This document shows, piece after piece, positions 6,216 to 56,706 of a DNA stretch of 64,000 nt. The translations under genes and the position numbers were made by a program. The notes below the pieces were generated by a model. It was not told the origin of the DNA. It was given only the letters and a program-made list of their open reading frames with translations, and did no database searches. Origin of the DNA: Planctomycetes bacterium MalM25 (lineage in GTDB: Bacteria; Planctomycetota; Planctomycetia; Pirellulales; Lacipirellulaceae); contig CP036424.1 of assembly GCA_007745835.1 (NCBI GenBank), forward strand, positions 3,273,968 to 3,337,967, read 5' to 3'. Within the stretch, counting starts at the first letter, position 1, and the number at the start of each line of letters is the position of its first letter.

Positions 6216-8971
6216 TCGACGCTTGTCTTGCCTGAGGGGTCGTTGTTGGGTTCGGTTTGCGTGGCCTGTCGGCGTGCTGCTGCCAAGGAGGCCAACCGGG
6301 CCTCAAGCCGCTGCTTCTCGCGAGCGAGCCGCTCCTCTTCGCCACGGCGTTTGGCTCCGAGCTTCAGCATCTGCTGCAAATAGCGGAGATCGGGCCGCCG
6401 GGCAAGGCACCATCGCAGGTGCGGCTCGGCCTCGTCGAACCGCTCGGCCCGGTTCAGCGCCATCGCCAGCTCGTGGCGGACCCAGAAGTTGTAGGGCAAG
6501 GCCTCCAGAGCACGCTGAGCGCACTCCACAGCGGCTTCGCAGCGGTCGATCGCCCGGTTGATCATCGCGAGCTGCCGCCAGCGGCGAGCCGCGTCCCGTG
6601 GGGCGTCGCCATCGGCTGCTAGCAACGCTTTCTCGGCGTGCTCCGCGATCGCAATAAGGTCCTCCTGGGAACCGGTCTGGTGGTAGGCGGCAAAGACCAG
6701 CTCGGTCGCTGCGCAATCAGGGCGCATTGCTTCTAGAAAGACGGTCGCCGGCATGAACGACGCGAGTGTCGCCACCAACTGGTTGCGATGGCTGCCCGGC
6801 AGGCGGAGGCTCTCGCGGTACTGCGTGAGTGCCTCACCGAGGCTCCCCGATGCGTGGAGCAGCCGGGCGGCCTCGTAGCGGACGCCTCCGTCCTGCGGAC
6901 GCAAGCGGATCGCCTGCTCGATCCAACGATCCAGCGGAACTGACTCGCCCGTAAGGAAAGCGAGGCTCGCGCACTGCAGGTAGGCTTGCGCCTCGAGCGG
7001 GCACATTTTGATCGCCACTCGGGCGTGGCGGTGGGATTCGGCGAGCAGCGGCAACGAGGGTCCGAAGGCGCGGGTAGCCCACTCACGGACCTCGTTGACT
7101 GAAGCGAACCCGCCGTTAATCGCCGCGTCGCGGATTAGGTCAAGCGTCATCGGGTTATCACCCTGAGCGACCTTATCGCCGAACGCGAGGGCGCAGCGTT
7201 GGGCGCAACGAACGCTCGCCCTCGCATTCCCAGGGTCGGCAGCTAAGACTCGCTCAAGCAGACCTTGAGCGCGGGCGTTGTTCTCTTCGATCGTGGCGTG
7301 CAAGTTGACGTCCTCGGCCGTCCCCTCCTCGAGTGCTTGGAGCCTCAGGGCGGTGGTGTTCTTCGCCACGCGGACATAACGATCCCACGAGATGGAACCG
7401 CAAGCCGGCCCGATCAAGCAGGCGACCGCCGCTGGGGCGGCGAGGGCGACCCCGCCTATGCTCCACCAGGAGGATAGGCTCTCATGCCTCTGAGGCCGGC
7501 GTTGCGAGGTCCTTTCAGGGTCTGGCTCTGAATCAGGTAGTTGTGTCAACCGGTAGGCGATAGCGGCAAAGCCGATCGCCAACGCGCCGAGGCTAGGGAC
7601 GTACCAAACGAAGTCGACTACCGAGTGCGTCGCGGTCACCATCAGCCCGCCGAACAGGCACGAACCGATCAGCATCCGCTCAGGAGTCTGCGCACCGCGC
7701 AGCACTCCCAGCACCCACCAGCCGAAGGTCGTCAAGGCGAGTATCAGGACGACCAGGCCGGCCACGCCGCACTCGCTGGCGATTTGCACGTAGCCCGACT
7801 CGGCGTGGGTGTACTCCTTGACGGCGGGCTCATCGAAGTACGCTGGGTAGAAGTAGCGGTGCCCTCCGGCGCCACTACCAAACCAAGGGTTTGCGGCAAA
7901 CGCCTCGGCGTTGGCTTCCCAGATGAGGCGACGGGCACTGTTCGCGTCGAGCTGTTCGATCTCGCCCGACACGAGGTCGTCGAGGCGGTTGGTCACACGA
8001 TCGTAATCGAATGACGAGACGGCGATGAGCACCGTGCAAACGATCGCTGCGAGCCCGATCGCCTCAACCAGCCGGAACCCACTGACACACCAGCGGGCAA
8101 TAATCGCCGCTATGATTCCGGCCACCAAGGCGGCGACACCGCCACGCGACATGGTCGCCAGCAACGTCATCAACATGAAGACGACCGCTGCCAATCCGAG
8201 TAGTAACCGGGGCGAGAGCTTCGGCTTCCGGCGATGCGAGTACTTCGAACTCGGAACTCTAACCTGGCTCAGAACCGCCGGAACAAAAGCCGCCACGCCG
8301 AAGGCGAGGAAATGAGCCAAGTGATTGCGGTTGGTGAAGGCCCCCTGCACCCCATCGTGAAAGCGATCGTAAGGATAGTCATACACCCAAAGGACTTTAC
8401 CATTCGAGCTACTGCTCTGCAGTACAGCGAGCGCCGCCATTCCCAACGCGACGAATCCGATCCCCCCCAGCAGTCGGCGGATGTCGGAGACCTCCTTCAA
8501 TCGATTGATAAGAACGAAGAACAGTAGAACGTGGGTGACGATCAAGGCGATCGCCTCGAACGTCTCTCGCGGTGCCAGAGACACGGTCCGCCACTCACCA
8601 AACGGTGAATCGGCGGTCCACATCGGAAGCAGCTGAGCGTGCCCGGGCGCCAAGAAAGTGAGGACTGACTGAGGCAACGGCAAGATCTGAACCACTGGGA
8701 TGGCGATTGCCAGAGCCGCCACGACACTAGGCCAAGTGGGCATCTGCAGCGTGGTCCTTAGCAACCCCGCACGGGCCGCTAGCGCCAACGCGGACAGAGC
8801 CACCGACGCCGCGTAGATCAGCCGCCCGATGTCGTGCCGGCCGCCGAGCACCAACGCGGTGACCAAGAAGACCCCCACCAAGCCGGCGTCGGTGGCGTGC
8901 AGGAGCCACTCGGCCACCCTCCTGCGTGAAGGGGACTTCGTGAACAGCCAGGCGATACGGAGATCGAACAT
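6212..8971 (-). CDS. O-antigen ligase/polymerase (Wzy-like) with C-terminal TPR region
   Basis: This polytopic membrane protein of about 919 residues has ten or more hydrophobic helices in its first half. A large periplasmic loop contains FAANPWFGSGAGGHRYFYP and HAESGYVQIASECGVAGL, the signature of the Wzy_C/O-antigen ligase family. The second half is soluble and built of TPR-like helices (for example residues with ALEALPYNFWVRHELAMALNRAERFDEAEPHLRW). The C-terminal end is a charged coiled coil (EERLAREKQRLEARLASLAAARR). It probably polymerises or attaches exopolysaccharide repeat units in the periplasm. The reading frame could begin at 9064, which would overlap the kinase gene by 44 bp with no ribosome site. 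I prefer the ATG at 8971. Its stop overlaps the dehydratase start. Confidence 0.82.
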   Translation of the reverse strand: MFDLRIAWLFTKSPSRRRVAEWLLHATDAGLVGVFLVTALVLGGRHDIGRLIYAASVALSALALAARAGLLRTTLQMPTWPSVVAALAIAIPVVQILPLPQSVLTFLAPGHAQLLPMWTADSPFGEWRTVSLAPRETFEAIALIVTHVLLFFVLINRLKEVSDIRRLLGGIGFVALGMAALAVLQSSSSNGKVLWVYDYPYDRFHDGVQGAFTNRNHLAHFLAFGVAAFVPAVLSQVRVPSSKYSHRRKPKLSPRLLLGLAAVVFMLMTLLATMSRGGVAALVAGIIAAIIARWCVSGFRLVEAIGLAAIVCTVLIAVSSFDYDRVTNRLDDLVSGEIEQLDANSARRLIWEANAEAFAANPWFGSGAGGHRYFYPAYFDEPAVKEYTHAESGYVQIASECGVAGLVVLILALTTFGWWVLGVLRGAQTPERMLIGSCLFGGLMVTATHSVVDFVWYVPSLGALAIGFAAIAYRLTQLPDSEPDPERTSQRRPQRHESLSSWWSIGGVALAAPAAVACLIGPACGSISWDRYVRVAKNTTALRLQALEEGTAEDVNLHATIEENNARAQGLLERVLAADPGNARASVRCAQRCALAFGDKVAQGDNPMTLDLIRDAAINGGFASVNEVREWATRAFGPSLPLLAESHRHARVAIKMCPLEAQAYLQCASLAFLTGESVPLDRWIEQAIRLRPQDGGVRYEAARLLHASGSLGEALTQYRESLRLPGSHRNQLVATLASFMPATVFLEAMRPDCAATELVFAAYHQTGSQEDLIAIAEHAEKALLAADGDAPRDAARRWRQLAMINRAIDRCEAAVECAQRALEALPYNFWVRHELAMALNRAERFDEAEPHLRWCLARRPDLRYLQQMLKLGAKRRGEEERLAREKQRLEARLASLAAARRQATQTEPNNDPSGKTSVE

Positions 8972-35048: not shown

Positions 35049-35627
35049 ATGCTCCACTTGAAGTCCGAAACCGACGCCCGCTGGTTCGAGCAGGTCGACG
35101 CCGACCTCGACGCGATCCTGATCGACCACGCCCACTGCGAGAAGAAGGCGGCCGGCACGGCGCTCAACCTGATGTTCGCCTACGTGGAGGACCTGGAGGT
35201 CTGCCGCGAGATGACGGAGATCGTCAACGAGGAGTTGGAGCACTTCCACATGGTGGTCGAGCTGCTCCAGGCCCGCGACATCCCGTTCCGACGCCTCACC
35301 CCGAGCCAATACGGACGCAAGCTGAACGACCTGGTTAGCAAGCAGGAGCCCCAGCGGGCCGTCGATCGGCTGCTGGTCGCGGGGCTGATCGAGGCCCGCA
35401 GCTGCGAGCGGTTCAGCAAGCTGGCCGAGCACGTCAGCCAAGACAAAGAGTTGTCGGAGTTCTACCACAGCCTGTTCGAGTCGGAGGCCCGCCACCACAC
35501 GACCTACACGAAGCTCGCCAAGCGGTTCGCCCCCGAGGAGGAGGTCATGCGGCGGCTGGACGAGCTGGCGGAGCAGGAGGCCCAAATCCTCGCCGACAGC
35601 GACGACCCGCCGCGGATGCACAGCTAG
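35049..35627 (+). CDS. miaE: tRNA-(ms2io6A)-hydroxylase MiaE-like
   Basis: This 192-residue protein resembles MiaE, the diiron enzyme that hydroxylates the isopentenyl side chain of 2-methylthio-N6-isopentenyladenosine at position 37 of tRNAs reading U-starting codons. Ferritin-like ligand spacing is visible: D27/H30-C-E-K-K in LIDHAHCEKKAAGTA, E60-E-L-E-H-F-H in NEELEHFHMV, E115-A-R-S-C-E in AGLIEARSCERF, and E143-x2-H-H in FESEARHHTTY. Its length fits the family. It is on the same strand as the lipid cassette downstream but separated by 200 bp, so a functional link is not implied. Confidence 0.85.
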   Translation: MLHLKSETDARWFEQVDADLDAILIDHAHCEKKAAGTALNLMFAYVEDLEVCREMTEIVNEELEHFHMVVELLQARDIPFRRLTPSQYGRKLNDLVSKQEPQRAVDRLLVAGLIEARSCERFSKLAEHVSQDKELSEFYHSLFESEARHHTTYTKLAKRFAPEEEVMRRLDELAEQEAQILADSDDPPRMHS

Positions 35628-35827
35628 AATCGGGCCTTCACCAGGACCGGCGGCGCCAGCACTTCACCGAATCTGAACGGAAGTTTAACCCCCTTCCAGC
35701 GCTATCCACTCGACGACGTAACCTCTGCGGCAGATATAGGTAACGGACAGATCGGACCGGCTCGGGGAGCCCCGCGAGGCGACGCCTCCCTCCCCAAGCC
35801 GCCTTGCCGTCAACCGCCAGGCGCCGC

Positions 35828-36784
35828 ATGTTCATTGAAACCGGATCGGACTCGCCCCGCCTCGCCCGCCTCGACTCACCCGCCCCCCGACCCTCCGGTC
35901 CCACCGGCCGCCAGCCGCAGCGCAACCCGCTGCTGCTAACGCCTCCGCCCGAGCCCTCCCCCCAGCCCGAAAAGCGTGGCGTGGTCCGCACCCTGTTCAT
36001 CAGCGACATCCACCTCGGCTGCCGGCATTCGCAAGCCGGCCCGCTGCTGGAGCTGCTCGAGCAGTACGAGCCGGAACAGATCTACATCGTCGGCGACTTC
36101 ATCGACGGCTGGAAACTGCGCAACCGCTGGCGCTGGCTGCCGGTCTACGACCAGGTGCTCCGCCGACTGATGGAGCTCAAACGCCAGGGGACCCAGCTCT
36201 TCTACACGCCGGGCAACCACGACAACTTCCTCCGCGGCTTCCTGGCCAACTTCGGCGTGATCGATATCCAGGACCGTTTCGTCCACACGGCGGCGGACGG
36301 CCGGCGGTACGTCGTCATGCACGGCGACCAGTTCGACAAGGTCGAGCAAGAGAAACAGTGGCTCTCGCTCGTCGGCTCCTACGCGTACGACGTGCTGCTG
36401 ACCGCCAACTGGATGGGCAATCGCCTCCGCGGCAAGAAGCACAACCCGTACGCCTTCTGCGCCGGGGTGAAGGCGCGCGTCAAGAAGCTCGTGACCCACG
36501 TCAGCGACTTCCAACAGCAGCTCCTCCAGAGCGCTCACGACTCCGACTGCGACGGGGTCATCTGCGGCCACATCCACGTGCCACGGATCGAAGAGCTCGG
36601 CGAGGTCGTCTACCTGAACACGGGCGACTGGGTCGAAAACTGCTCGGCGCTTGTCGAATTCTCCGACGGCAGCTTTGAGCTGATCCGCGGGGATGGCGAG
36701 CTGATCGATCGCCTCGCCGCCCGTCCCGAGCAGCAGCAATCCGAGCCGACCAGCGCCGACGAGCAGGCCTCGATCGCCGTCTGA
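35828..36784 (+). CDS. plcP: Calcineurin-like metallophosphoesterase, probable PlcP-type phospholipase C
   Basis: This protein of about 318 residues has the full two-metal phosphoesterase set: D60-x-H62 (FISDIHLGCRHSQA), G-D90-x2-D93 (YIVGDFIDGWKLR), GN130-H131-D-N, H165-G-D (VVMHGDQFD) and GH248-x-H250 (VICGHIHVPRI). LpxH (UDP-diacylglucosamine pyrophosphatase) and PlcP share these motifs. The DGWKLRxxWRW stretch after the second motif and the position upstream of btaAB fit PlcP, which releases diacylglycerol from phospholipids under phosphate limitation. A proline-rich leader of about 50 residues is unusual. I use the ATG at 35828 rather than a TTG at 35804. LpxH-like activity remains the main alternative. 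Confidence 0.75.
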   Translation: MFIETGSDSPRLARLDSPAPRPSGPTGRQPQRNPLLLTPPPEPSPQPEKRGVVRTLFISDIHLGCRHSQAGPLLELLEQYEPEQIYIVGDFIDGWKLRNRWRWLPVYDQVLRRLMELKRQGTQLFYTPGNHDNFLRGFLANFGVIDIQDRFVHTAADGRRYVVMHGDQFDKVEQEKQWLSLVGSYAYDVLLTANWMGNRLRGKKHNPYAFCAGVKARVKKLVTHVSDFQQQLLQSAHDSDCDGVICGHIHVPRIEELGEVVYLNTGDWVENCSALVEFSDGSFELIRGDGELIDRLAARPEQQQSEPTSADEQASIAV

Positions 36785-36796
36785 GCGGACCACGAG

Positions 36797-36921
36797 CCGA
36801 ATTGTTGGAAGCGAACCACCCAACTCGCAATCGGGAGGTCGACCTAAACCGTTCAGTCAGCTGGTCTTGACCGTCAGCGTGCGGCACACCGCAGGTGGGG
36901 TTCTTTCCAATTATTGCTCGG
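36797..36921. repeat. Inverted-repeat intergenic element, copy 2
   Basis: The left arm CCGAATTGTTGGAAGCGAACC (36797-36817; its complement matches the right end of copy 1 at 20 of 21 bases) and the looser right arm (36899-36921, beginning GGTTCTTTCCAA) could pair across about 80 bp. The element fills most of the gap before btaA, so it may carry promoter or regulatory function. Confidence 0.55.
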
Positions 36922-36995
36922 CCCCTTAGGCTTGTGGCTTGCGCGAGGACGGATGCTAGCCTCGCGGCGCCCAAGAAGGGTCCCGAGGACTCCCC

Positions 36996-38369
36996 ATGCT
37001 GGCTCGACAACTCAGTCAAGCGGTCTTTAAGTTCTGCCACGGCAACCAGTTGGTCTACAACACCTGCTGGGAAGACCCGCGCCTCGACCGCGAGGCGCTC
37101 GAACTCGGCGCTGGTGATCGGGTGCTGGTCATCACCTCGGCCGGCTGCAACGCGCTGGACTACGCGCTGGACGAACCGGCGCGGATCGACACGGTCGATG
37201 TGAACCCGCGCCAGAACGCGCTGCTCGACCTGAAGCTCGCCGCGATCAAGCAGCTGGATTACGACCAGTTCTTCGAGCTGTTCGGCCGCGGACGCGTCGA
37301 CGATTGGGACGCGATCTACACCGATGCGTTGCGGGCCGAGCTCCCCGAGGCGAGCCGGAAGTTCTGGGACAAGAACGGCAAGTTCTTCATCGGCTCGAAG
37401 AAGCGTCCCAGCTTCTACTTCCGCGGCTCCTCGGGCATGTTCGCCTCGTGGGTCAACTGGTACATCAACCGCTACGCGAAGGTCCGCGAGGACATCGACA
37501 AGCTGCTCGCCGCCGAGACGATCGAGGAGCAGCGCGAGGTCTACCAGCGCGTGAAGCCCGCCTTCTGGGGCCCCTACATCAAGTGGGCCCTGCGGCGCGA
37601 CGCCACGCTCTCGCTCCTCGGCGTGCCGCGGGCGCAGCGGCAGCAGCTGGAGAAGTACTACCCGGGCGGCATCGCCACCTTCATCGAGCACAGCCTCGAC
37701 GCCGTGTTCACCGAGCTGCCACTCAAGGACAACTACTTCTGGCGCGTCTACTTGACGGGCGAGTACACGCCCGAGTGCTGCCCGGGGTACCTTAAGAAAG
37801 AGAACTTCGCACGCCTGAAGGGGACCGACGGCCAGCCCGGCCTCGCCTCGCGGATTCACACGCACACCACGACCATCCTCGACCACCTGAAGGGCGCGGA
37901 CGGCAACTACTCGCACTTCATCCTGCTCGATCACATGGACTGGATGGCCGAGCACATGAAGGACGTGCTCGCCCTGCAGTGGCAGGAGATCGTCGACCGC
38001 GCGGACGACGGAGCGAAGCTCCTGTGGCGCAGCGCCGCGGTGATCTGCGAATTCGTCGATCCGATCCCGGTGACCGTCAACGGCCAACGCCGCACGCTCG
38101 GCGAGGTGTTGGAGTACAACCGAGAGCTGGCGGACAAGCTGCACCAGCAGGACCGCGTTCACACCTACGGCGGTTTCTCGATCGCCACGCTACGCCGCGA
38201 CGGCGTCACGGCCACCGCGGCCGAGGCCAACCGCGCCGACGGCAAGCTCGGCTACGCCGCCGGCGGCCGGGTCACTCAGAGCAATCATCAAACGGAGCAA
38301 GCGGCCGATGGGGGCGATCAGTCAGCTAAAAACGCTGTATCACCTGACGCTCTCGCCAATCCGCGGTGA
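36996..38369 (+). CDS. btaA: S-adenosylmethionine:diacylglycerol 3-amino-3-carboxypropyltransferase BtaA
   Basis: This 457-residue BtaA (DUF3419) protein transfers the aminocarboxypropyl group of SAM to diacylglycerol, giving diacylglyceryl homoserine, the first step of betaine-lipid (DGTS) synthesis at the membrane. Family features are GNQLVYNTCWEDPRLDREAL at the N-terminus, the SAM-binding VLVITSAGCNALDYAL, IDTVDVNPRQNALLDLK, a long mid-section with FWGPYIKWALRRD, and the C-terminal FILLDHMDWMAEH. Length is typical, with a short polar tail added. It is followed directly by the methyltransferase BtaB, whose start lies 62 bp inside this gene. The pair is the known bacterial DGTS pathway. Confidence 0.92.
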   Translation: MLARQLSQAVFKFCHGNQLVYNTCWEDPRLDREALELGAGDRVLVITSAGCNALDYALDEPARIDTVDVNPRQNALLDLKLAAIKQLDYDQFFELFGRGRVDDWDAIYTDALRAELPEASRKFWDKNGKFFIGSKKRPSFYFRGSSGMFASWVNWYINRYAKVREDIDKLLAAETIEEQREVYQRVKPAFWGPYIKWALRRDATLSLLGVPRAQRQQLEKYYPGGIATFIEHSLDAVFTELPLKDNYFWRVYLTGEYTPECCPGYLKKENFARLKGTDGQPGLASRIHTHTTTILDHLKGADGNYSHFILLDHMDWMAEHMKDVLALQWQEIVDRADDGAKLLWRSAAVICEFVDPIPVTVNGQRRTLGEVLEYNRELADKLHQQDRVHTYGGFSIATLRRDGVTATAAEANRADGKLGYAAGGRVTQSNHQTEQAADGGDQSAKNAVSPDALANPR

Positions 38370-39039
38370 GACGCACCAAGAGCGACTCGACAGCTTCTAC
38401 GGCGGTCAGGCGGACGACTACGACGCGTTCCGCAAGAAGATGCTGCACGGGCGCGAGGCCCTCTTCGAGGCCCTCCCGATCACGCCCGGCGGCGCCTGGC
38501 TCGACGTCGGCGCGGGGACCGCGCGCAACGGCGAGCTGTTCGGCGATCGCCTGAACGAGTTCGGCTCGGCGACGTTCCTCGATCTCTCCGAGTCGCTGCT
38601 GGAGGTGGCCGGCCGTCGCATCGCTAACGAGGGCTGGTCGAACGCCCAAACGTTGCACGCCGACGCGACCGCGATCGACCTGCCGGACGAATCGCTCGAC
38701 CTGGTGACCTTCACCTACTCGCTGACAATGATCCCCGACTGGTTCGCCGCCATCGAGCAGGCGAAGCGGCTGCTCAAGCCGGGCGGCACGATCGGCGTGG
38801 TCGATTTCTACGTCTCGCGACGCTATCCAGATGACGGCCGCACGAAGCACTCCTACTTCGCCCGGAACTTCTGGCCCTTCTGGTTCGGCAACGACAACGT
38901 CCACCCGAGCGCCGACCACCTGCCGATGCTCAACCGTCACTTCGATCCTGTGCAAATCGACGAGCAGCACGGCAAGCTGCCCTGGGTCCCCGTGATCCGG
39001 GCGCCGTATTACCGATTCATCGGAACCAAGAAGGGTTAA
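38308..39039 (+). CDS. btaB: S-adenosylmethionine-dependent N-methyltransferase BtaB
   Basis: This 243-residue class I methyltransferase should methylate diacylglyceryl homoserine three times to give the betaine lipid DGTS. The N-terminal LKTLYHLTLSPIRG and ERLDSFYGGQADDYDAFR are typical of BtaB. The SAM motif is WLDVGAGTARNGELF (residues 64-78) and the acidic loop is SATFLDLSE. Later segments LVTFTYSLTMIPDWFAAI and GTIGVVDFYVSRRYP are also family-like, as is the HSYFARNFWPFWF stretch. The ORF overlaps btaA by 62 bp, suggesting translational coupling, with GGAG about 12 nt before its ATG. The next gene begins 14 bp after its stop. Confidence 0.9.
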   Translation: MGAISQLKTLYHLTLSPIRGETHQERLDSFYGGQADDYDAFRKKMLHGREALFEALPITPGGAWLDVGAGTARNGELFGDRLNEFGSATFLDLSESLLEVAGRRIANEGWSNAQTLHADATAIDLPDESLDLVTFTYSLTMIPDWFAAIEQAKRLLKPGGTIGVVDFYVSRRYPDDGRTKHSYFARNFWPFWFGNDNVHPSADHLPMLNRHFDPVQIDEQHGKLPWVPVIRAPYYRFIGTKKG

Positions 39040-39053
39040 GCACTCCCCCTCCC

Positions 39054-40160
39054 ATGGCCACCCTGTTCTACAGCGTGATGGGCGAAGGACGCGGCCACGC
39101 GGCCCGCGCCCGAGCGGTGGTAGAGCGTCTGCGTGATCGCCACCGGGTGGTGTTGTTCACGTCGCACGACGCCCTCGAATTCCTCCGCAAGGAGTATACG
39201 GACGACCCCGAGATCGAGGTCCGGGAAGTCCCCGGCCTCAAGTTCCACTACTCCGAAGGGAAGATCGACAACCTCAAGACGATCCGCTTCGGCGGGGCGT
39301 TCTGGGCTTCGCTCGGGAAGTACGTGCGCGACCTGGCGGCGACGATCCGGGTCGAACGCCCCGACCTGGTGATCACCGATTTCGAGCCGCTGCTGCCGCG
39401 GGCCGCCGCGCAGGTGGGCGTGCCGGTGCTGAGCCTCGATCACCAGCACTTCCTCTCGACGTACGATCTCACTTCCCTACCGAATGAGCTGCGTGCCTGG
39501 GCGTGGCGGATGAGCTGGTCGATCTGGGCCTTCGGCATCCGCCAGCAGCGGACGGTCGTCTCCGCGTTCTACAAGCCGCCGCTGCGGCGTGGTTGCGAGC
39601 AGGTGACGCAGGTCGGCCCGCTGATCCGCGACTCAATCGCCGAGCGGACGCCAACGCGAGGCGAGCACCTCCTGTCTTACGTCCGGCGTGCGACAACCCA
39701 GGGCGTGCTCGACAAACTGGCCGATCTCCCCCTGCCCGTGCGGCTGTACGGACTCGGCGAGCGCCCCCCGCAGGGAGCGATCACCTTCTGCCCGATCGAC
39801 GAGCAGACCTTCGTCGACGACCTGGCGAGCTGCGACGCGGTCGTCTCCGCGGCGGGCAACCAGCTGATCGGCGAGGCGCTCTACTTCGGCAAGCCGATGT
39901 TCGTGATGCCCGAACGCCACCATTACGAGCAACGCATCAACGCCGAGTTCGTTCAGCAGATGGGCGCCGGCGAGAAACGGATCCTGGAGAAGCTGGCGGC
40001 CGAAGACCTCAGTGGCTTCCTCGACCGCCGAGATTCCTACCGTGAAGCGATCGCCGCGATCGGCGACGGGTTCGACGGCGGGCCCGAGGTGGAACGGGTC
40101 ATTGAGGAGATGCTCACTCCCTACCTCAAAGCGGCGCCCTCGGCGCGGGAGTCGGCGTGA
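39054..40160 (+). CDS. MJ1255/GT28-like glycosyltransferase in the betaine-lipid operon
   Basis: This 368-residue GT-B enzyme starts LFYSVMGEGRGHAARARAV, the G-x-G-H loop seen in the MJ1255-type and MurG/MGDG-synthase-like glycosyltransferases. A DLVITDFEPLLPRAAAQVG strand and a C-terminal nucleotide-sugar site follow (SCDAVVSAAGNQLIGEALYFGKPMFVMP, in which the G-x2-E-A-x6-P element is visible). Sitting 14 bp after btaB and 3 bp overlapping the next gene, it is part of the lipid operon. I infer that it glycosylates diacylglycerol, giving a phosphorus-free glycolipid, by analogy with plcP-linked glycosyltransferases. No lipid-specific motif proves this. Confidence 0.75.
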   Translation: MATLFYSVMGEGRGHAARARAVVERLRDRHRVVLFTSHDALEFLRKEYTDDPEIEVREVPGLKFHYSEGKIDNLKTIRFGGAFWASLGKYVRDLAATIRVERPDLVITDFEPLLPRAAAQVGVPVLSLDHQHFLSTYDLTSLPNELRAWAWRMSWSIWAFGIRQQRTVVSAFYKPPLRRGCEQVTQVGPLIRDSIAERTPTRGEHLLSYVRRATTQGVLDKLADLPLPVRLYGLGERPPQGAITFCPIDEQTFVDDLASCDAVVSAAGNQLIGEALYFGKPMFVMPERHHYEQRINAEFVQQMGAGEKRILEKLAAEDLSGFLDRRDSYREAIAAIGDGFDGGPEVERVIEEMLTPYLKAAPSARESA

Positions 40161-40606
40161 TGGCGGGTTGGTTGCTGATTGCGCAGGCGCTGGCCTCGCT
40201 CTACATGACGGGCCTCATCTGGTTCGTGCAGTTGGTCCACTACCCGATGTTCGCCGACGTCCCCGAGGAGGCGTTCGTCCGCTACGAGCAGATCCACCAG
40301 GCCCGCACCGTGTGGGCCGTCGGCCCGATGATGCTGCTCGAGCTGGGCACGGCGCTCGCGATGTTCGCTTGGCGGCCCGAGGGCGTGCCCGCTTGGGTCG
40401 CCTGGGCGGGGCTCGCTCTCCTGCTGCTGGTCGATGGCTCGACGGCCCTCTTCTTCGGGCCACAGCACGGCCGTCTGTCCGCCGGCTTCGACGCCGAATT
40501 GCACCGGCGGCTCGTGCAATGGAACTGGGTCCGCACTTTCGGTTGGACCGCGCGGGGACTGCTGCTGCTCTACGCGCTGCGGCTCGGGTCGGCGCCGCCG
40601 GCCTGA
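40160..40606 (+). CDS. Small four-helix membrane protein of the lipid operon
   Basis: I do not recognise a named family. The 148-residue protein has four hydrophobic helices (about residues 2-27, 50-75, 80-98 and 125-142). A conserved-looking loop, VQLVHYPMFADVPEEAFVRY followed by EQIHQARTVWAVGPMM, has His, Arg and acidic residues facing one side, as in small membrane enzymes or quinone-binding proteins. The start ATG overlaps the glycosyltransferase stop (TGATG), so it is cotranslated with it. It may help transport or modify lipids. It ends 8 bp before the convergent GNAT gene. Confidence 0.68.
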   Translation: MAGWLLIAQALASLYMTGLIWFVQLVHYPMFADVPEEAFVRYEQIHQARTVWAVGPMMLLELGTALAMFAWRPEGVPAWVAWAGLALLLLVDGSTALFFGPQHGRLSAGFDAELHRRLVQWNWVRTFGWTARGLLLLYALRLGSAPPA

Positions 40607-54540: not shown

Positions 54541-56706
54541 ATGCAACGCCGCGCTGAAGGTGCGCGCCCACCACGAGGGCGCAACGAGAAACTCGAGGAC
54601 CGCCAGCTGCTCGCCGCCGACTTGGGCGCCGAGCTGGAGTCGCTCGATCCCTTGCTCGAATCGAGCGTGCTCGAAGTCGCTTCGATCGACGGATCGAACA
54701 ACAACCTCGACAACCCGGACTGGGGCGCCGCCGGCACGGCACTGCAGCGCCTTACGACCGTGGAATATGCAGACAGTCTGTCCGACCCAGCGGGCGACGA
54801 TCTTCCTAGCGCCCGCGAAGTATCGAACGCCGTTGCGGACCAAGATTCGCTGGTCGACAACGACCGTTACCTGACCGACTTTGTCTGGTTGTGGGGGCAG
54901 TTTATCGACCACGACCTCGACCTCTCGGTCCACGCCGACCCGGCCGAGGCGTTCGACATCGAGGTTCCGCTCGGCGACGCCGAGTTCGATCCCTTCGCGA
55001 CGGGCGAGGTGACGATCGGTCTCGAACGCTCCGACTACGTAGTCGATGACGAGGGCGTCCGACAGCAAGTGAACAGCATCACCGCCTACCTCGACGGGTC
55101 GGTCGTCTACGGGCCAGACGAAGAGACGGCCGCCTCGCTGCGGTGCTTCGAGGGGGGCCGCATGCTGACCAGCGAAGGCGACCTGCTGCCGATCGGCGAG
55201 GACGGCTTCTTCCTCGCCGGCGACGTCCGGGCAAACGAGAACGTCGCCCTCACGTCGATGCACACGCTCTGGGTGCGCGAACACAATCGCCTGGCGGACG
55301 AGATCGCTTCGGTTGATCCTTCACTCTCTGACGAGGAGATCTACCAGCAGGCCCGTGCGCTGGTGACCGCCCAGATCCAGGCGATCACCTACAACCAGTG
55401 GCTGCCCGCGCTGTTGGGCGTCGATGCGATCGACAGCTACTCGGGCTACGACCCGGACGTGAACGCCGGGATCGCGAACGTCTTCTCTACCGCCGCTTAC
55501 CGCTTCGGGCACAGCATGCTCTCGACCGAGCTGCTGCGTCTCAACGCCGACGGCACGGTCGCCGACGAGGGGAACCTGTCGCTCTCGGACGCCTTCTTCT
55601 CGCCGGGCGAAGTGCTCGATCATGGCATCGAGTCGCTGCTGCTCGGCGCCTCCGAGCAGGTAGCGCAAGAGATCGACACGATGATCGTCGACGACGTGCG
55701 AAACTTCCTGTTCGGCCCCCCCGGCGCCGGCGGGCTCGATCTGGCTTCCCTGAATATCCAGCGCGGCCGCGACCACGGCCTCGCCGACTACAACCAGGTG
55801 CGTGAAGACTACGGCTTGCTGCGTGTCCAAAGCTTCTCTGAGATCACCTCCGACGAGGAGCTCGCCGCGAAGCTCGAAGCGCTCTACGGATCGGTCGACG
55901 ACATCGACCTGTGGGTTGGTGTCTTGGCAGAAGACCACGTCGCCGGCGCCAGTCTCGGCGAGCTGGGACGGACGATCCTAGTCGATCAGTTCACGCGTCT
56001 CCGCGACGGCGACCGCTACTGGTACGAGAATCGCTACGAGGGCGAGACCCTCAGCGCGCTGCGGTCAACGACTCTCGCCGACGTTATCGAGCGGAACACC
56101 GATATCGAAGGCCTCCGCGACAACGTCTTCCTCGACGATTCGGTCCTCTACTACGCCGCCGATCCCGACGCGCCCCGGATGGACGTGATGCTGCACGTGC
56201 AGCAAGGCGAGCTGAGGCTCATCGACAACGGCTCTGGCAAGATGCTCGCCGCGGTGCCGGCCGATGAGGCAACGGGCGTGTCCCTCGTCGGCACGGCCGG
56301 CGACGATCGGGTGCTTATCCATCCGAGCGCGATGCGACTCGGCCTGGCGGCCGGCGTCGTGGTCGATGGTCAAACGGGACGCCATGACACGGTCGTCCTG
56401 AGGGGCGACCCACGAATCGACACGGCCTCAATCGACGGCGCCTTCGCTCAGCTTGGCGAGACGGCGGTGCAGGTCGAAGGGGTCGATCGATTGGTCATTG
56501 ACGCGAGCCTTGGACCCGATCAGATCGAGGTTATTGAGGAGGGCGAGTACGACCTCGTGGTGGACAACGACCAAGGCCAGCGACAACGCGAACGTCGGGA
56601 TCGCCTCGATCGCGGGCCACAGGCTCCTCTCGCGCCCCGTCCCCTTACCGACATGCAGGCGGAGGTGCGGCTCGATCGTGACCGCCCACGGGGAAGCCGG
56701 CGTTGA
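54541..56706 (+). CDS. Animal-type heme peroxidase with LEPR-XLL-like N-terminus
   Basis: The protein has 721 residues. The heme peroxidase fold shows the distal His124 in WGQFIDHDLDL (with the calcium-binding Asp125), catalytic Arg246 in HTLWVREHNRLADE and proximal His324 in AYRFGHSML. These are the animal peroxidase/peroxinectin signatures. The N-terminus is NEKLEDRQLLAAD, a LEPR-XLL-like tag used by planctomycete surface proteins. The last 45 residues become Arg-rich (RQRERRDRLDRG) with codon third positions unlike the rest, so a sequencing error or natural frame change near 56570 is possible. Oxidation of halides or phenolics at the cell surface is inferred. Confidence 0.82.
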   Translation: MQRRAEGARPPRGRNEKLEDRQLLAADLGAELESLDPLLESSVLEVASIDGSNNNLDNPDWGAAGTALQRLTTVEYADSLSDPAGDDLPSAREVSNAVADQDSLVDNDRYLTDFVWLWGQFIDHDLDLSVHADPAEAFDIEVPLGDAEFDPFATGEVTIGLERSDYVVDDEGVRQQVNSITAYLDGSVVYGPDEETAASLRCFEGGRMLTSEGDLLPIGEDGFFLAGDVRANENVALTSMHTLWVREHNRLADEIASVDPSLSDEEIYQQARALVTAQIQAITYNQWLPALLGVDAIDSYSGYDPDVNAGIANVFSTAAYRFGHSMLSTELLRLNADGTVADEGNLSLSDAFFSPGEVLDHGIESLLLGASEQVAQEIDTMIVDDVRNFLFGPPGAGGLDLASLNIQRGRDHGLADYNQVREDYGLLRVQSFSEITSDEELAAKLEALYGSVDDIDLWVGVLAEDHVAGASLGELGRTILVDQFTRLRDGDRYWYENRYEGETLSALRSTTLADVIERNTDIEGLRDNVFLDDSVLYYAADPDAPRMDVMLHVQQGELRLIDNGSGKMLAAVPADEATGVSLVGTAGDDRVLIHPSAMRLGLAAGVVVDGQTGRHDTVVLRGDPRIDTASIDGAFAQLGETAVQVEGVDRLVIDASLGPDQIEVIEEGEYDLVVDNDQGQRQRERRDRLDRGPQAPLAPRPLTDMQAEVRLDRDRPRGSRR

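Follow-up and report, generated by a model that had tools for sequence, protein, structure and literature searches.

In a 64-kb window of the genome of Planctomycetes bacterium MalM25 (64,000 nucleotides; CP036424.1, positions 3,273,968 to 3,337,967 of the forward strand), we identified a cluster of genes with predicted functions in phosphorus-sparing membrane lipid synthesis. The host is a Botrimarina relative (Lacipirellulaceae, Pirellulales) with a 4.72-Mb genome on one contig. Four genes, encoding a PlcP-like esterase, BtaA, BtaB and a glycosyltransferase (GT), behave as one unit across related genomes and lie behind a direct-repeat element that is shared with the promoters of pst operons. 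We consider it probable, from comparative evidence, that these four genes form an operon that responds to phosphate starvation by remodelling the membrane lipids, with an adjoining membrane protein gene left out of the system.

In the proposed mechanism, a PhoB-type regulator would bind the 11-bp-period repeat at low phosphate and switch on plcP-btaA-btaB-GT. PlcP would then split the phosphorylated head group from phospholipids and leave diacylglycerol, onto which BtaA would transfer the 3-amino-3-carboxypropyl group of S-adenosylmethionine; BtaB would methylate the product to give the betaine lipid diacylglyceryltrimethylhomoserine (DGTS). The GT would use the same diacylglycerol pool to form a glycolipid. 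The route from PlcP to DGTS is proposed because of homology and direct precedent in Phaeobacter MED193, and the clustering of PlcP with BtaA and BtaB for phosphorus sparing, already put forward in the original prediction, gains support from homology and co-occurrence, with the Pho-type box as independent evidence of phosphate control.

Gene layout and conservation

The original prediction had placed five genes at 35828-40606, and this span proved exact: it holds five plus-strand open reading frames, taken from an open reading frame list and checked for start and stop codons. The plcP-like gene (35828-36784) is followed after 211 bases by btaA (36996-38369), which overlaps btaB (38308-39039) by 62 bases; 14 bases separate btaB from the GT gene (39054-40160), and the latter overlaps the membrane protein gene (40157-40606) by 4 bases. 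The plcP start codon, an ATG at 35828, is backed by alike N-termini in genomes of the same genus (MFLE in G392 and MFIE in G393; genomes are cited here by G numbers and loci by L numbers). From the overlaps, the downstream genes may be translationally coupled.

Co-occurrence was assessed in a family set of 24 genomes, comprising the host's own, three of the same genus and 20 of the same family, with a GT threshold of E ≤ 1e-100. BtaA and the GT occur in the same 11 genomes, and PlcP in ten of those 11. The other 13, some of them incomplete (down to 66%), have none of the three, the one exception being a GT match in G407 that is weak and partial. Fisher's test for BtaA and the GT gave p = 4e-7, a value that ignores relatedness and counts G407 as absent. 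The one genome of the 11 without PlcP is G402, which has btaA-btaB-GT on a contig that begins within btaA.

The four genes are contiguous in six of the 11 genomes (G000, G392, G393, G394, G396 and G409), and order is kept in G406 and G414, with 1.7 and 4.8 kb before the GT gene. In G398 the cassette is split by contig ends, and in G404 btaA-btaB-GT lie together with plcP about 300 kb away, beside miaE. The original prediction had suggested looking for the five-gene order in other Pirellulales; in this family the order is partly supported, the first four genes being contiguous in the six genomes named and all five standing in order in just three of the 11. A further metagenome-assembled genome (MAG; L256) carries the contiguous four-gene set, while L263 (Planctomycetes bacterium Pan216) and L327 (a Planctomyces MAG) keep the order with wider spacing.

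Phylum-wide, BtaA was found in 66 and the GT in 45 of 392 genomes. The BtaA search gave 71 matches in those 66 genomes, the window's included; of the other 70, 60 were inspected for neighbouring genes, and plcP lies directly 5' of btaA on the same strand in 15 of these 60 loci. Several lineages, for example that of Blastopirellula marina (L272), have plcP-GT pairs that are not accompanied by bta genes. In one locus (L060, G291) plcP is present twice: the two copies, some 6 kb from each other and in opposite orientation, accompany btaA-btaB and the GT gene, respectively.

The PlcP-like esterase

The esterase has a calcineurin-like metallophosphoesterase domain (PF00149, 57 bits) and is predicted to act as a phospholipase C that releases diacylglycerol from phospholipids. 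It could instead be an LpxH-type enzyme of lipid A synthesis that adjoins the betaine-lipid pair by chance: LpxH models are among its top NCBIfam matches, all eight of its PDB matches are LpxH, and relatives in public plasmid records are annotated as UDP-2,3-diacylglucosamine diphosphatase, an LpxH-like label. However, its scores of 62 and 46 bits lie far below the respective LpxH cut-offs of 134 and 190 bits. It is also nearer to a Sinorhizobium meliloti homologue (43% identity over 244 residues, 211 bits) than to Escherichia coli LpxH (25% over 221 residues, 43 bits), and it reads GNHD where E. coli LpxH reads GNRD. The S. meliloti gene is presumably the characterised SMc00171. LpxI, an alternative enzyme for the LpxH step, was found in 38 of 39 genomes (relatives including the window genome) with or without the esterase, so lipid A synthesis can probably do without this enzyme; the esterase itself was not found in 14 of the 24 family genomes. 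An LpxH-type enzyme beside btaA by chance is, in our judgement, very improbable. By score the protein appears PlcP-like, in line with the original placing of such an esterase directly upstream of btaA, and the label in the plasmid records looks like an over-annotation.

In a metallophosphoesterase tree from which rows of ≤180 residues were dropped (54 of 56 retained), the window PlcP groups with the PlcPs of its own family. The single LpxH row, with a branch length of 10, fell among one set of planctomycete rows, a placement that we treated as an artefact and as meaningless.

A separate observation concerns L194 (G417), where a highly divergent metallophosphoesterase (6953-7714; E = 7e-11 to the window's) lies directly 5' of btaA-btaB. 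Here PlcP has possibly been replaced by another phosphatase.

BtaA and BtaB

BtaA, a predicted S-adenosylmethionine:diacylglycerol 3-amino-3-carboxypropyltransferase, matches DUF3419 at full length (PF11899, 389 bits over 390 residues, profile positions 4-384 of 385) and is 30-32% identical to DUF3419 proteins in eight rhizobial plasmid records. It is the single BtaA match in the genome, and a sequence search of the PDB with it returned no match. BtaB, a predicted N-methyltransferase that would convert diacylglyceryl-homoserine to DGTS, is a class I methyltransferase (best methyltransferase model, 62 bits) with 36% identity over 151 residues to the methyltransferase 3' of S. meliloti btaA. Both genes had been called originally by motif, with their overlap noted, and the domain matches and the overlap agree with this; their catalytic activities are predicted from homology.

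Two further observations touch these families. G406 has three BtaA matches, with 65%, 50% and 27% identity to the window BtaA. Five loci (L262, L264, L265, L287 and L291), from Schlesneria-like planctomycetes and one further planctomycete, have a BtaB-like methyltransferase ahead of the glycosyltransferase; within the fetched sequence the only btaA found is on the opposite strand of L265.

A Pho-box-like element shared with pst promoters

Upstream of plcP on the plus strand, at 35662-35689 and 138 bases 5' of the ATG, lies a candidate operator of three direct repeats with an 11-bp period (CTTCAC-N5-CTGAAC-N5-TTTAAC). The repeat was found by aligning family plcP upstream regions and occurs in the window and, in varied form, in eight of nine relatives; in G398 (L181) the best match scores just 12.1 and lies at 410 bases. 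A half-site matrix built from nine family plcP promoters gave training scores of 18.5-28.5, against a 99% background threshold of 10.8. Across the 64-kb window and a background of 227 kb, only the window's own site scores ≥15; the highest score in 1 Mb of Markov background (one strand) was 17.1.

The matrix was also applied to pst regions of 13-14 kb in the window genome and seven relatives. All eight have a best match of 18.2-23.3 at 11-bp spacing, 3.05-3.35 kb 5' of pstB and oriented towards it, where the pst operon begins. At spacings of 8-10 and 12-14 the scores are ≤14.1, and runner-up positions reach 4.1 to 15.6, several of them overlapping the site itself. In each of five loci scanned, the first gene after the box encodes a domain of PstS type (PF12849); by eye it is PstS-like in L248 and L251, and none was seen in the frames viewed of L250. 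Since plcP and pst promoters share the box, phosphate control of the cassette through a candidate PhoB-type site is supported by the sequences.

Held-out plcP promoters scored 24.7 (L256), 23.8 (L263), 21.3 (L327), 16.8 (L330), 14.1 (L317) and 13.1 (L272), the L272 box being identical to that of L144. Among f2 loci, four of six plcP-GT pairs have a box of 13.1-13.9, and in family f15 matches of 13-18 were found at five of 13 btaA loci, once on the opposite strand. A pattern search of eight genomes returned 15 matches; leaving aside the plcP promoters from which the pattern came, the fair comparison is of nine remaining matches with three for the reversed pattern. Some of these look like chance: one match in G394 falls within a longer frame (L226), and those at L223, L227, L228 and L229 are unexplained. 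The window genome has three matches, at plcP, 5' of phoU and 5' of a secreted dockerin-like gene.

The last of these is a perfect Pho-type box at G000:C1:503524-503551 (L221 5525-5552), 5' of a gene whose product matches dockerin marginally. In G393 (L224) a similar-looking gene, taken by eye as its orthologue and without a Pfam match, carries a box containing two mismatches. The product is possibly a phosphate-scavenging secreted protein.

The glycosyltransferase

The GT is a GT-B enzyme (Glyco_trans_1_3, PF13528, 195 bits) and a predicted glycolipid synthase. Its predicted model is confident (predicted local distance difference test, pLDDT, 92), and Foldseek matches it to GT1-type UDP-glycosyltransferases (best E = 5.8e-14). 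Two GT4 models scored below their cut-offs (PF13579, 27.1 bits; PF13439, 23.4 bits) and no other GT4 model matched. The GT28 C-terminal model PF04101 passes its cut-off (24.8 versus 22 bits) over the C-terminal part only, and the best folds look GT1-type by their titles. A GT28/MJ1255-like label had been proposed originally. With 161.8 bits to the MJ1255/VC2487 model TIGR00661 (cut-off 195.9), the protein is by this rule a relative of that family, not a member.

The genomic contexts of GT relatives are mixed. We kept 80 named relatives of 255 found, and 65 of these have no plcP, btaA or btaB match in the fetched locus; the idea that this GT is always a lipid gene was rejected on that count. 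Many stand-alone copies adjoin an RdgB-like gene (judged by eye). After promoters shorter than 150 bases were dropped, 79 of the 80 were kept (64 stand-alone and 15 linked), and none of the 64 stand-alone promoters reaches the 99% Pho-box background. In a quick-method tree of 112 rows, from which matches of <700 bases and duplicates had been dropped, most stand-alone GTs form one part (46 rows), and the 17 rows of plcP-GT pairs are scattered, with at least three changes forced by well-supported branches.

These data bear on a rival explanation, namely that PlcP, BtaA and BtaB make DGTS and the GT shares the operon but acts on something else, for example a cell-envelope glycan or another lipid. 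The many stand-alone relatives, often beside other genes, and their boxless promoters fit this idea, as do the nearest solved folds among the matches listed, which act mostly on small molecules. Against it, the GT and BtaA occur in identical sets of family genomes, and plcP-GT pairs fall at several places in the GT tree, some of these pairs having a Pho-like box in front. We regard this alternative as less likely than not, though its probability is substantial. A role of the GT in glycolipid synthesis, suggested by gene order and co-occurrence, is probable, with a diacylglycerol acceptor and a sugar donor presumed; hexosyl-diacylglycerol, the glycolipid looked for in the original prediction, is a candidate product. 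More tentatively, with slightly less than even confidence, we propose that a single operon under Pho control lets one PlcP supply the synthesis of both DGTS and a glycolipid, and that the GT, a PF13528 enzyme distinct from Agt, represents a new class of diacylglycerol glycosyltransferases recruited several times into the planctomycete phosphate regulon.

Evidence against a phosphate-controlled operon

Several observations weigh against a single phosphate-controlled operon of all four genes. The 211-base gap between plcP and btaA could hold another promoter. A scan for sigma-70-like promoters found none. No E. coli-type Pho box is present at plcP; the window has one three-mismatch match to that box elsewhere, versus a chance mean of 2.6. 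Of 41 non-training plcP-like promoters, 28 fall under the 99% background and 13 exceed it, many of these being near-copies, and six of the 15 pattern matches are the training promoters. The boxes 5' of phoU (G000 and G392) are oriented away from phoU. Where btaA lies apart from plcP, the box is lacking: btaA of G404 scores 1.4, six f2 loci have no btaA box above 9.5, and the btaA promoter of G419 is without one. The GT, as stated earlier, also exists outside plcP contexts. Because separate btaAB genes and stand-alone GTs are boxless, the box appears mainly to accompany plcP and to cover the GT only where the two are linked. A search for sigma-54-type patterns found none, a sigma-54 paper that mentions btaA once (PMC12316311) was of no help here, and a terminator scan gave two candidates, both on the minus strand and below the shuffle mean.

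The membrane protein and neighbouring genes

The fifth gene encodes a membrane protein predicted as a confident four-helix bundle (pLDDT 95). It has no Pfam or NCBIfam match, and a fold comparison with the PDB gave nothing at E ≤ 0.001. Three of 15 members match Anthrone_oxy weakly and three UPF0093, and these matches were not used. The original prediction had counted it as part of the system, and it could function there, for instance in transporting or flipping lipids: it overlaps the GT gene and occupies the same position in Botrimarina colliarenosi Pla108 and B. hoheduenensis Pla111. However, the three cassette genomes with this arrangement are all Botrimarina, the window's included, and in the other eight of 11 it is not beside the GT gene. 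Moreover, the protein is present in 16 of 39 relatives (partial in G414), seven of which lack BtaA, and its copies are unlinked to the cassette in G396 and G409. We regard a working role as unlikely and the gene as probably a recent neighbour, a hitch-hiker outside the system. Other relatives of this protein lie near DNA photolyase genes (L164 and L172) or NAD-epimerase-like genes (L169 and L170).

On the other side of the cassette, a miaE-like gene (35049-35627, plus strand; PF06175, 223 bits) is a conserved upstream neighbour outside the pathway, found 5' of plcP in eight of the nine family plcP loci read besides the window. Elsewhere, at 54541-56706, the window encodes an animal-type haem peroxidase (PF03098, 530 bits), here in a planctomycete.

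Comparison with known systems

PlcP-driven lipid remodelling has been shown experimentally in Proteobacteria and a flavobacterium, and both PlcP-BtaAB and PlcP-glycosyltransferase clusters are already published in Proteobacteria. In the type 1 cluster of Phaeobacter sp. MED193, plcP lies 5' of btaA and btaB, DGTS was undetected in a plcP deletion mutant, and putative Pho boxes are reported at plcP clusters (PMC4796936). The window resembles this cluster in gene order and putative box but adds a GT. For its BtaA the comparison, at 30-32% identity, is with the rhizobial DUF3419 proteins and not with the MED193 protein. Type 2 plcP-agt clusters (SAR11 and Erythrobacter, PMC4796936; Methylosinus, PMC9239053) likewise combine plcP with a glycosyltransferase and a link to phosphate limitation. 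Agt, however, is grouped with GT4, whereas the window GT belongs to PF13528 with a GT1-like GT-B fold and has bta genes in the same cluster; any equivalence would therefore be convergent.

The candidate operator closely resembles known boxes in its half-sites and its 11-bp-period direct repeats. The Streptomyces PHO box consists of 11-nucleotide direct repeat units with GTTCACC (PMC4415409), and the cyanobacterial SphR Pho box of three CTTAACCT repeats with 3-bp linkers (PMC1906773); the window half-sites differ, reading CTTCAC, CTGAAC and TTTAAC. Ornithine lipids are other known phosphorus-free lipids of planctomycetes (PMC12493201, PMC7828035). In open-licence literature searches that listed 1 to 20 papers each, we found no description of the cassette or of a planctomycete Pho box, two listed papers in which both terms, 'Pho box' and 'Planctomycet', occur (PMC11828411, PMC3972451) being left unread; as far as these searches show, the joint cluster, the GT class and the planctomycete Pho box look new. 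Our results place a complete PlcP-driven remodelling set, apparently wired to phosphate, in the Planctomycetota, and provide a usable Pho-box matrix for this phylum.

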